Assembly: GCA_900299205.1 (NCBI GenBank)
Contig: OMIW01000131.1
Coordinates: 1-8,076, forward strand
Direction: 5' to 3'
Length of the DNA stretch: 8,076 nt
Source: Pseudomonadota bacterium
Lineage (GTDB): Bacteria > Bdellovibrionota_C > UBA2361 > OMIW01
Part shown: positions 1,131-7,043 of the stretch, piece after piece
Layout of the letters: each line of letters starts with the position of its first letter
Position numbering within the stretch: the stretch's first letter is position 1
Notes under the pieces: model-generated
Told to the model about the DNA's origin: nothing
Database searches by the model: none
The model's input: the letters and a program-made list of their open reading frames with translations, nothing else
Translations under genes and position numbers: made by a program

Positions 1131-1337
1131 CGACATCCCAGTTTTTTTGTTGGTGGGTCTCTCTCGAACCAACCCTGGACCACCGGAGCTGGATACGAGC
1201 CTGAAGTAATTACAAAAACCTGCCACCGTTCCCCGCTAGCATAGGGTGGGTCGGCATCCTTGAACTTCCCCGCGGTCTCTGCATACCGACTCGGAGTCGC
1301 TAGGCAAGCCAGCCCAATCACCCTCCCCGAGCCATCG

Positions 1338-1358: not shown

Positions 1359-1406
1359 TCATTACCAAAGCATCCGTTAACCCCATGGGTAGCTCTCGGA
1401 TTCGTG

Positions 1407-1429
1407 CTCGGGGTCTCTGATACCCCGAG
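1407..1429 (+). other. Perfect 8-bp GC-rich hairpin upstream of the mraZ promoter
   Basis: CTCGGGGT at 1407-1414 pairs with ACCCCGAG at 1422-1429 around the 7-base loop CTCTGAT. It ends 39 bases before the candidate -35 box. There is no U-tract after it. The core GGTCTCTG-ATACC recurs with one extra base at 1274-1287, where it can also form a weaker hairpin. Confidence 0.5.
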
Positions 1430-1468
1430 GGTTCGCTCGAAAGCAACGCAATCCCCTTTATTTGCACC

Positions 1469-3710: not shown

Positions 3711-5684
3711 ATGAGGGGACAGGATCGGTGCGCGGGGTGGCTTGAGTCACTGCGAGAGGTTTTGTTGGAACGACAAGGGGCATGGTGGAGTCGTTTCATC
3801 CCTAGGCGAGGTTATCACCATAAGAGAGTTGGCGGAGGCCATCGCCGCTCAAATGGTAATTTCCCGAATCGAATGCCTAACTACGCCAACGTGGTGCAGA
3901 CCCGGCAATCGAGGCACCACGTTGTCGCAGTGCCAGCATCGGAGCTTCGCGAAGCGAGACTCACGGTTATATTCGTGCCAGCTCTCCTTTGGGCGGGGCT
4001 CGTTGTTGGTAATTTGTATCGGATTCAGCTCGCGGGGGTCGAGCGATGGCGTGGTCGTGCCGAAGACCAGCAATTTAGCGAGATAGCGCTCGCGGGCGAG
4101 CGGGGGGCTATTCTCGATAGAGCTGGACGGGTGATTGCGATGTCGGTCCCTGCTGCGTCGATATATGCGCGTCCTAAATCGATAAAGGACCGCCGAGCTG
4201 TGATTGATGCGGTTGCGCCGATTGTCGGAGCAGAGAAAGCCAGTCTCGCGAAGTCGCTTGAGTCATCGCAGCCATTTGTCTTCCTCGCTCGGCAGGTATC
4301 GCGCAAAATTGCTGAACAGGTATCAGCGCTCGGATTGTCAGGAGTTGGCCATTTGCCCGAATCAAAACGGACCTATCCCTACGGGCAGGCTGCGAGCACA
4401 CTTATCGGGGCGGTGGGTATTGATGGTGAGGGTCTCTCGGGGATTGAGCGGGTTAACGAGGGACGGCTCGCATCAGCGCCAGTGAAGGCTCGGGTGGCGC
4501 GCGATGCGCACGGAAAGCTTATCCAGCTTCCAATGGGGGACGATGCGGTTCTTGAGCCCCGAGTGGGCCATGCAGTGCAGCTCACCCTCGATGTCGAGTT
4601 ACAACGGATGCTCGACGAGGAGCTCGAACAGGGCCGGGTTGCTTCGGGTGCCCGTGGTGCGTTTGGGGTGATGGTCAATGCGACATCAGGGGAGATTCTC
4701 GCGATGAGTCAAGCACCTTCCCCTAACTTCAACGTGCTGCGCCGATTTAACCCTCGGCATCTCCACAATCAGGCGGTCGAAGCAACCTTCGAACCGGGTT
4801 CGATCCTCAAAGCGGTGGTTGCCGCGGGAGCCGTCGAGCGGGGAGTCGTACGTCCCAAAGAGATGATAAATTGCGAGCACGGGAGCTTTTCTTACGCGGG
4901 GCGGACCGTTCACGACGCGCACCCCTCCGATACGATTTCATTTTTTGATGTCGTGGTCCGCTCTTCAAATATTGGAATGGCGAAGGTCGGTGATCGTCTC
5001 GGTCGTTCAAACCTTTACACCATGCTCTCAACCTTTGGGTTCGGGAAACTCACCGATATTGGTCTGCCGGGAGAGAGTGCGGGTATTCTTCGCCCTGTCT
5101 CAACCTGGGCTCAGATAGATGTCGCAACCCATGCCTACGGACAGGGAATTGCCGTTACTCCTCTCCAGGTGGTGCGTGCGTTTAGCGCCCTTGTCAACGG
5201 TGGTACCTTAAATCCCCTTCGTCTCATCAGGGGGCGTCCGGTGAGAGACGAGCCCCAGCGGGTTATTTCGCCGAAGACTTCGGAGATCATTCAGGAAATG
5301 CTTATCGGGGTTGTAGAGGAAGAGCGGGGAACGGGTAGCTTTGCCGCGATTCCTGGTGTCCGTATCGGGGGAAAGACAGGAACTGCCCAGAAGGCAAGAG
5401 TTGGTGGGAGAGGCTATCTCCCCGGAAAGTACATGTCCTCGTTCGTCGGCTTTGCTGACGGTACCGATATAGGCATCACCGATAGATTGGTACTTCTTGT
5501 AACCATGGATGAGCCCACGAGAGGCTCCTATTACGGCGGGATCGTCGCAGCCCCTGTGTTTCAAAGGACGATGAAGAGGGCTCTTGAACATCTTTCTGTG
5601 AGAACGCTTCTGGCGCCGCAGGATGGTGCATCTGAGGGGATGGCGAGATGGCGGGGGCCTGAGGGGTCGGAGATTTCCTCGTAG
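3711..5684 (+). CDS. ftsI: FtsI (PBP3), septal peptidoglycan D,D-transpeptidase
   Basis: FtsI is the class B penicillin-binding protein that cross-links septal peptidoglycan together with FtsW. From ATG 3711 it has 657 aa. Residues 1-83 are a basic, Arg-rich cytoplasmic tail and 84-103 a membrane anchor (VIFVPALLWAGLVV). The dimerisation domain follows, with GERGAILDRAGRVIA starting near residue 130. The transpeptidase domain holds all three active-site motifs: SILK (S364 nucleophile, K367), SSN (418-420) and KTGTA (555-559), plus the conserved YGQGIAVTPLQ segment. No PASTA domain is present. The frame is open back to TTG 3624, adding 29 basic residues, but only ATG 3711 has a strong SD. The cytoplasmic tail of about 83 residues is longer than the roughly 20-25 residues in E. 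coli FtsI. It lies 96 bp after ftsL. murE, the usual next gene, is absent. Confidence 0.95.
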   Translation: MRGQDRCAGWLESLREVLLERQGAWWSRFIPRRGYHHKRVGGGHRRSNGNFPNRMPNYANVVQTRQSRHHVVAVPASELREARLTVIFVPALLWAGLVVGNLYRIQLAGVERWRGRAEDQQFSEIALAGERGAILDRAGRVIAMSVPAASIYARPKSIKDRRAVIDAVAPIVGAEKASLAKSLESSQPFVFLARQVSRKIAEQVSALGLSGVGHLPESKRTYPYGQAASTLIGAVGIDGEGLSGIERVNEGRLASAPVKARVARDAHGKLIQLPMGDDAVLEPRVGHAVQLTLDVELQRMLDEELEQGRVASGARGAFGVMVNATSGEILAMSQAPSPNFNVLRRFNPRHLHNQAVEATFEPGSILKAVVAAGAVERGVVRPKEMINCEHGSFSYAGRTVHDAHPSDTISFFDVVVRSSNIGMAKVGDRLGRSNLYTMLSTFGFGKLTDIGLPGESAGILRPVSTWAQIDVATHAYGQGIAVTPLQVVRAFSALVNGGTLNPLRLIRGRPVRDEPQRVISPKTSEIIQEMLIGVVEEERGTGSFAAIPGVRIGGKTGTAQKARVGGRGYLPGKYMSSFVGFADGTDIGITDRLVLLVTMDEPTRGSYYGGIVAAPVFQRTMKRALEHLSVRTLLAPQDGASEGMARWRGPEGSEISS

Positions 5685-5693
5685 CCTTTTTTT
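5656..5693 (+). terminator. Possible intrinsic terminator overlapping the ftsI 3' end
   Basis: GGC (5656-5658) and GAGG (5661-5664) can pair with CCTC (5677-5680) and GCC (5684-5686) around a small internal loop, and seven T residues follow directly at 5687-5693. The stem is short, so the call is tentative. If functional, it would end the dcw transcript right after ftsI. The T-run also belongs to the left inverted-repeat arm of the transposase unit. Confidence 0.35.
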
Positions 5694-5714
5694 GTCTCAG
5701 AGACACCGTGGAGG
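5684..5714 (+). repeat. Left arm of the inverted repeat flanking the transposase gene
   Basis: The core TCTCAGAGACAC (5695-5706) is exactly the reverse complement of 6937-6948. Going inward, the next eight bases match at six positions and end in a shared GGAGG, so the inner 20 bases agree at 18 of 20. Going outward, GCCTTTTTTT matches GCCTGTTCTT at 8 of 10 after one extra G (5694). The arm contains a small internal palindrome, GTCT CAG AGAC. Confidence 0.6.
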
Positions 5715-5735
5715 CAACATTTTTAAGGAAGTGTC

Positions 5736-5778
5736 GATGATGGGGAAGTACTGATACTTCTCGTTGGAAACCATCATC
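5736..5778 (+). promoter_or_regulatory. Nested stem-loops reaching the transposase start codon
   Basis: GATGATGG (5736-5743) pairs perfectly with CCATCATC (5771-5778), whose last base abuts ATG 5779. Inside it, GAAGTA (5745-5750) pairs with TACTTC (5755-5760) around CTGA. The SD-like GGAAA (5766-5770) lies in the unpaired part. The structure could limit translation of the transposase or serve as a DNA hairpin recognised by it. Confidence 0.45.
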
Positions 5779-6711
5779 ATGGGCTACCATCCTCGGATTG
5801 AAACGAATGAGCATGCAGATTTTATTACGTCGCGGACCCGCAACTCCAAGCTCTGGTTTGTGAACAATAAGAGCCTTGAGGTAGCGACGCTTGGGGCTCT
5901 AGCTAAATATTCGAAACGATACAACATTACTCTGTATGCGTTTGGGGTTGAGGGGAACCACATCCATTCGGTCATGCAGGTCAATGAGAGGAATCGGGGT
6001 CACTTTATGCGGGACCTTAAATCCTCGATTGCGAAAGCGATCGTGCGAAACGTGCCATCGTATCCGGGAGGTTCGGTCTGGGGGCGACGGTATTCGAACG
6101 AGTTTCTGCCCGGGGATGCGGATGTTGAGAATTGGTTTTTCTACACGGTGCTGCAACCGGTACAGGACGGGCTTGTTGAAAAGATATCGGACTATCCCGG
6201 CTACAACTGCTTCCACGATGCGGTATGGGGAATCAAGAGAAAATACAAGTCTGTTAATTGGACGGCGTATCATGATGCGCTCAGATGGGATCCGAGGGCG
6301 AACATCAGGGATTTTACCGAGTTCTACATCCTTGAATACGCGCGACTTCCTGGGTATGAGGAGCTCAGTCAACGGGAGTACGCCGTGTTGATGCATAAGA
6401 AGCTTGAGGAGCGGCGGCAAGAGATTGTGGCGAAGCGGCGAGCGGAGGGGAAAGGATTTGCAGGGCGAACGGCGCTAATCAAAACTCGTCCCGGCTCGCG
6501 CCCCCGTTCGACGAAGGTTTCAACCCGAGATTGCCATCGCCCTCGGATTCTCTCTGTGTGCCCTAATCGCCGAGCCGAGGCGACGATGTGGTACTTTGAC
6601 ATCTATTTTGAATTCAAAACGGCATCAAAGTCATACCGAGACGGGGACCAAACGGTGGTGTTCCCCGAAGGGACTTACCGACCGTATGTGCCGCCGGTGG
6701 GGACCATATGA
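5779..6711 (+). CDS. REP-associated (RAYT / IS200-like) HUH tyrosine transposase
   Basis: This is a Y1-type single-strand DNA transposase of the RAYT group, which nicks and rejoins DNA at palindromic REP-like hairpins. The HUH metal-binding motif is HIH at residues 61-63, within GVEGNHIHSVMQV. The catalytic tyrosine is most likely Y122, in the segment FFYTVLQPVQDGLVEKISDYPGY that matches the RAYT consensus around YxxxNPVxAGLV. The HUH domain covers about residues 1-160. The remaining 150 or so residues are an extension with a basic helix (EERRQEIVAKRRAEGKGF), a Pro/Arg-rich linker and a closing segment with YRDGDQTVVFPEGTYRP, which I believe recurs in related deltaproteobacterial-type transposases. 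ATG 5779 (310 aa) is preferred over TTG 5764 because GGAAA (5766-5770) lies 8 bases upstream. The frame is intact with both catalytic motifs, so it may be active. It interrupts the usual ftsI-murE junction. Confidence 0.88.
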   Translation: MGYHPRIETNEHADFITSRTRNSKLWFVNNKSLEVATLGALAKYSKRYNITLYAFGVEGNHIHSVMQVNERNRGHFMRDLKSSIAKAIVRNVPSYPGGSVWGRRYSNEFLPGDADVENWFFYTVLQPVQDGLVEKISDYPGYNCFHDAVWGIKRKYKSVNWTAYHDALRWDPRANIRDFTEFYILEYARLPGYEELSQREYAVLMHKKLEERRQEIVAKRRAEGKGFAGRTALIKTRPGSRPRSTKVSTRDCHRPRILSVCPNRRAEATMWYFDIYFEFKTASKSYRDGDQTVVFPEGTYRPYVPPVGTI

Positions 6712-6737
6712 CGGTAGAGTCTCATCTCCTACCCGTC
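6710..6737 (+). repeat. Imperfect hairpin with GTAG at the transposase stop codon
   Basis: GACG and GTAG (6710-6717) pair with CTAC (6729-6732) and CGTC (6734-6737), with one bulged C at 6733 and an 11-base loop. It begins within the TGA stop codon. E. coli RAYT recognises a GTAG tetranucleotide beside REP hairpins, so the GTAG here is suggestive but short. The right-arm word CTACCCGTC recurs at 6910-6918. Confidence 0.4.
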
Positions 6738-7043
6738 CCTTATAGTTTTGCTTGCCGAGTCTCGATGGATTGGGGGAGGTGAGGTATAGCTTGGGATTAA
6801 AAATGGCGATTTGAATAGACAAAAAACCCCCTAATTTCCCTTCCGCTCCGAAAAAGTTTGCTGAACCACATTATCGTTAAGAACAACTGTTCCTACCCCA
6901 TAATCATTTCTACCCGTCTGACGATTGACCTCCCCAGTGTCTCTGAGAAAGAACAGGCCAGGCCTCCCCAATTAAATGTTGTGTTTGAAGACTAACAATC
7001 AACCCGATACGCCGATTCCTCTCAAACCCTCAAACACCAGATT
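6738..7043. other. Gene-free stretch between convergent genes
   Basis: No credible coding frame is present. It holds GAACAACTGTTC, a near-perfect palindrome (6881-6892), a second CTACCCGTC (6910-6918), the right inverted-repeat arm (6929-6958), and GTGTTTGA (6981-6988) that can pair at a distance with TCAAACAC (7030-7037). No convincing bidirectional terminator is seen. CAAAAAACCCCC at 6820-6831 would read as a G-run and T6 on the minus strand, but no stem precedes it. Confidence 0.4.
6929..6958 (-). repeat. Right arm of the inverted repeat flanking the transposase gene
   Basis: Read on the minus strand it gives GCCTGTTCTT, then TCTCAGAGACAC, then TGGGGAGG, matching the left arm 5684-5714 with 18 of 20 identities over the inner part and 8 of 10 outside. 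It lies 218 bp after the transposase stop. An AGGCC-A-GGCCT palindrome overlaps its outer edge. Confidence 0.6.

Follow-up and report, generated by a model that had tools for sequence, protein, structure and literature searches.

A REPtron-like and TIRtron-like element with a long, divergent HUH/Tyr transposase and a dispersed palindromic core

The window analysed here, a stretch of 8,076 nucleotides, is the whole of one contig (C131) from a 2.45-Mb draft genome that comprises 206 contigs and is 90% complete. It carries mraZ, rsmH, a small ORF at the position of ftsL, and ftsI, followed by an element in which two inverted arms bracket a transposase gene, and finally by a minus-strand ORF without a match in Pfam, NCBIfam or PHROG (Table 1). 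Among the 22 relatives in which ftsI was found, 17 have directly after it a gene that we take, from reading its sequence, to be murE. In the window, the element and the minus-strand ORF occupy this place, and because most relatives read murE after ftsI, the dcw cluster seems to have been interrupted or rearranged here. The ftsI-murE gaps of the relatives contain no copies of the repeat described below.

Table 1. Position of repeats and genes in the window, counted from its first nucleotide
Feature	Position	Strand	Remarks
Probable degenerate repeat copy	1264-1281	-	Same orientation as 1401-1430, about 137 bp away; weak, E 0.032
REP-like palindrome CTCGGGGTATCAGAGACCCCGAG	1401-1430	-	Gap upstream of mraZ; fold z -4.1; E 9.4e-8 with a model that lacks the arms but has this copy itself in its training set
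Left inverted arm (element end)	5684-5714	+	Sequence GCCTTTTTTTGTCTCAGAGACACCGTGGAGG
RAYT-type (HUH/Tyr, IS200-like) transposase with long C-terminal extension	5779-6711	+	Y1_Tnp match and motifs
Right inverted arm	6929-6958	-	Reverse complement GCCTGTTCTTTCTCAGAGACACTGGGGAGG
ORF, 332 aa	7044-8042	-	After the element

The transposase gene is single-copy in the host genome. Its best start is the ATG at 5779, with the TTG at 5764 as an alternative and the stop at 6711; the proteins of relatives, which bear on this choice, begin with M.YHPRIE. The encoded protein of about 310 aa has NHIH as its HUH motif and Y127 as its tyrosine, the latter within YTVLQP, a sequence that most close relatives likewise carry in place of the Y---NP motif of TnpAY1 class 2. 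It matches Pfam Y1_Tnp (E 2.7e-6) and, by profile comparison, the E. coli TnpA-REP structure 4er8 (E 1.3e-6), and it reaches 53 bits against REP_Tyr_transpos of NCBIfam, which is below the cut-off of 80. An AlphaFold model built from a 3-row alignment had a mean pLDDT of 36.7 and was too poor for a structure search. No relatives were present in the plasmids or viral contigs searched.

The arms share an identical 12-bp core, TCTCAGAGACAC, match at 18 of 20 positions in their inner part and are gapped in their outer part; their local inverted-repeat score of 34 exceeds the maximum of 25 among 100 shuffles. Both the arms and the intact HUH/Tyr gene between them, as described in an earlier note on this DNA, were confirmed. 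In the host genome, the exact 12-mer occurs four times, compared with no occurrence of the reversed control. A solo copy of the left end (45 bp, 98% identical; similarity spanning 5674-5733 of the window) lies on contig C187, between a convergent ORF and the 3′ side of a gene that is presumably aroC, judging from its ORF translation. For the right end, no second copy was found in the host genome, and the 3′ flank (6712-6965) has no match there other than the left arm. When folded as single strands, the left arm gives a z of -1.35 and the right arm does no better than chance. In genomes G018, G023 and G043 and in the C187 copy, the end has a CCCC tract on its outer side (GGGG when read on the opposite strand); in the window, such a tract is not clear. 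Inverted flanks specific to individual copies had appeared to lie outside the arms (0 of 20000 permutations over mixed genomes); this candidate was dropped because CCCC..CTATTTC proved to be a conserved part of the outer end in the G018 family.

Confinement of the arm to the two ends would, according to the earlier note, have spoken against its reading; instead, the arm core is present at about 26 places in the host genome, mostly in palindromes such as CTCGGGGTATCAGAGACCCCGAG. With up to one mismatch, TGTCAGAGACCC has 26 matches (8 exact and 18 with one mismatch) versus 10 for the reversed control, and the broader pattern TNTCAGASACYNCG has 18 versus 0. Allowing mismatches in this way led to the family consensus TGTCAGAGACC with variable flanks, and in a profile search of the host genome 26 places reached E <= 0.05, almost all of these being the profile's own training copies. 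The family was discovered via searches with arm-like sequences and, because the search began from the arms, its resemblance to them is partly built in. In the window, a model from whose training the arms had been left out ranks the palindrome upstream of mraZ first, followed by the two arms (E 0.0029 and 0.025) and then the weak degenerate copy. Arms and palindromes have TCAGAGAC and a 3′ CG.GGA tract in common, with the GG..CC of the palindromes replaced by T/G..A in the arms.

Of the 26 copies, 13 lie outside ORFs, as judged by crude ORF calls that cover 85% of the DNA. A copy number of about 26, in a draft that is 90% complete, is low for a REP family. No match was found in PHROG or Rfam, and when the literature was searched for the core, none of the titles listed dealt with bacterial repeats. 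Of the undescribed REP-like family that the earlier note had suspected, what is supported is that the arm core belongs to a dispersed, palindromic and mostly extragenic family; the arms themselves are not classical REPs.

Most of the dispersed copies have a palindromic structure with TSTCAGAGA at its centre, and those tested fold as single strands with z values of -2.2 to -4.1. Their stem arms match better within than between copies (0 of 5000 shuffles with all genomes pooled, p 0.004 in G020, p 0.028 in the host), even though covariation of the stems within the host genome is weak. The 5′ side of the palindrome lacks a conserved GT[AG]G foot, and what is conserved is a CG.GG tract on the 3′ side. 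The paired, oppositely oriented copies anticipated by the earlier note were not borne out: all eight pairs of neighbouring copies in the host genome are direct, without the inversion typical of REPINs or BIMEs, and the same is true of 18 of 20 neighbours less than 200 bp apart in relatives. Spacing within these head-to-tail clusters is variable (24-179 bp).

Homologues of the transposase occur in 24 of the 37 genomes of the phylum that were searched. In a clade from the same order, whose proteins are 53-63% identical to that of the window, almost every gene examined has an inward-facing TCTCAGAGAC with up to one mismatch on its upstream side, and many have one downstream too; more distant homologues are without this core. 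Counting the window, 12 of 22 transposase genes have an inward core with up to one mismatch upstream and seven have one downstream, compared with three and two, respectively, for outward-facing controls. Genomes of the same order have a median of six core copies if they carry the gene and of one if they do not (p 0.011), and palindromes with the same core are found in G007, G020 and G043, all of which carry the transposase. G022 is an exception, with 17 matches to the core pattern and no transposase gene detected in an assembly that is 87% complete. The earlier note had also named, as a finding against its reading, related genomes that keep the repeats without the transposase gene; as worded, this objection does not hold, the arms being kept by the related transposases, although G022 has many core copies. 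At the metal-binding motif, HIQ replaces HIH in three relatives (L022, L030 and L034) and YIQ is found in a fourth (L027), each with the tyrosine retained; because several relatives have HUQ rather than HUH, activity cannot be assumed for the whole clade.

Recent copies of an entire element are preserved in the metagenome-assembled genome SJ526, where two copies share 92% identity across 1409 bp, with the similarity stopping exactly at the terminal repeats, CCCCCCTCTTTCCTCGGAGAC and its inverse. In one of them, the first 79 bp are duplicated in tandem. Gene-less elements of 263-411 bp with the same ends occur in genomes of the family f11 and in G004, with most copies in G018. Several of these gene-less elements (L111-L115, L134 and L138) have at least one palindrome of the TATGATTTNAAATCATA type in their interior, at varying positions. 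Elsewhere, the end and its adjoining sequence are tandemly duplicated, up to three times (L052, 1885-2042; L110, 1840-1895; L122; L123; L141).

We regard it as likely that the locus is a REPtron- or TIRtron-like unit, i.e. a single-copy, divergent and long HUH/Tyr transposase between inward-facing recognition ends whose core has been dispersed as palindromes. One could instead see in it an insertion sequence of the ordinary kind that has terminal inverted repeats, survives in one copy and shares the TCTCAGAGA palindrome with unrelated repeats by coincidence. In favour of this, the sister copies have the look of a mobile insertion sequence accompanied by gene-less derivatives, arms and palindromes are unlike each other beyond the core, and the right arm folds no better than chance. 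Such a coincidence is unlikely, however, given TCAGAGAC and the 3′ tract common to arms and palindromes, the same-core palindromes in three relatives that all have the transposase, and the larger number of core copies in same-order genomes with the gene.

The palindromic shape of the repeats and their frequent location between genes would also suit host regulatory sites or transcription terminators, which the transposon ends imitate or one of which they captured. Head-to-tail clusters of variable spacing, stems that vary around a constant core and the tandem duplication of the end unit in relatives make this explanation very improbable. As for a chance match of the arms around an isolated, domesticated transposase, the gene is indeed single-copy in the host genome, but the arm score lies above every shuffle, and the 45-bp second copy elsewhere in that genome together with the arms kept in relatives refutes this reading.

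The likely reading as a REPtron- or TIRtron-like unit retains much of the REPtron layout put forward in the earlier note, namely the arms, the gene, the dispersed core and a pairing kept in relatives; against that layout stand the missing GTAG/GTGG foot, the direct pairs, the unfolded right arm and the transposon-like ends. Because the foot and the inverted pairs fail, as does the Y---NP of class 2, we do not file the element as a proven REPtron; it is more accurately described as resembling both REPtrons and TIRtrons, with a transposase of a divergent subclass, than simply as a REPtron. A core that recurs about 26 times and a gene-repeat pairing that is kept in relatives make it look like a new branch of a known type of hairpin-repeat-copying system.

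Mechanistically, the recognition end would consist of TCTCAGAGAC, preceded by an outer CCCC/GCCT-T-rich tract and followed by CG.GG, with two inward-facing copies bounding the transposase. Its core would have been reshaped into palindromes of 20-25 bp and scattered mostly extragenically, often as head-to-tail pairs. By analogy with TnpA-REP, the folded TCTCAGAGA core is probably what the protein recognises, and it would be moved through cleavage and rejoining by the tyrosine. During replication, a single-stranded repeat may fold around TCTCAGAGA, whereupon Tyr127 would nick at the base of the hairpin and the strand would be joined to a new single-stranded site. A fixed polarity of cleavage would place insertions beside an existing repeat head-to-tail, which could explain the direct arrays. 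The arms, the gene, the repeat family with its clustering, the conserved pairing of gene and end sequence, and the recent element copies with exact ends in a relative are observed; that strands are cleaved, that the palindromes are mobilised in trans and that the system is active today we infer. The transposase would presumably move repeats in trans and, among sister lineages, would also have moved itself and the short gene-less elements. More tentatively, the element may represent a distinct transposase subclass (QP for NP, HUH/HUQ, long C-terminal domain) in an uncultured bacterial lineage, intermediate between insertion sequences and domesticated RAYTs. Such a transposase would use one recognition core in two roles, at the transposon ends and in self-complementary REPs, would spread repeats head-to-tail and not in inverted pairs, and would still be mobile with gene-less derivatives of its own.

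The element bears on the open question of how REPs originated from mobile elements. Related genomes carry the same end on a full transposon, on short gene-less elements and on solo palindromes, and the transposase is single-copy in some hosts and present as near-identical copies in another; with them, the transition of an insertion sequence into a domesticated RAYT could be tested along a natural series, and this in a host lineage outside those covered by the REP literature cited here.

In REPtrons, such as those of E. coli and Stenotrophomonas, a RAYT or TnpA-REP gene is flanked by REPs (PMC2817692, PMC8266576), and in vitro work has shown that TnpA-REP cuts repeats that are single-stranded and folded (PMC8266576). 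The window element resembles REPtrons in that its HUH/Tyr gene is single-copy and lies between inverted repeats, the core of which is found dispersed in short extragenic palindromes. Unlike in REPtrons, the hairpin is not preceded on its 5′ side by a GTAG/GTGG foot, the arms are not clean hairpins, and the protein is about 310 rather than 150-200 aa long, with Y-x-x-x-QP instead of NP; the repeat has only about 26 copies. Its neighbouring copies are direct, whereas head-to-head dimers are said to predominate in known REPs (PMC3733652).

TIRtrons, whose TIRYT transposases largely belong to TnpAY1 subclass 2.1, have TIRs that can form modest families, some of them self-complementary and clustered (Di Nocera et al. 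2013; PMC3733652). In both TIRtrons and the window element, a long transposase lies between terminal inverted repeats that have no relation to GTAG REPs. The two differ in host lineage, in the Tyr motif and in the ends, which here are formed by TCTCAGAGAC, joined in some relatives by the outer CCCC tract, and do not clearly show the reported GGGGWSAS motif as such. Similar in length (median 325 aa) and in the long C-terminal domain is TnpAY1 subclass 2.3, characterised by NHYH...YVDLNP and reported without REP-like flanks (Quentin et al. 2018; PMC6006769); NHIH...YTVLQP and the flanks set the window protein apart from it, by published description only. Finally, the element has the Y1 HUH fold family (Pfam Y1_Tnp) in common with the IS200/IS605 insertion sequences, but possesses terminal inverted repeats, which IS200/IS605 are reported not to have (PMC2817692).
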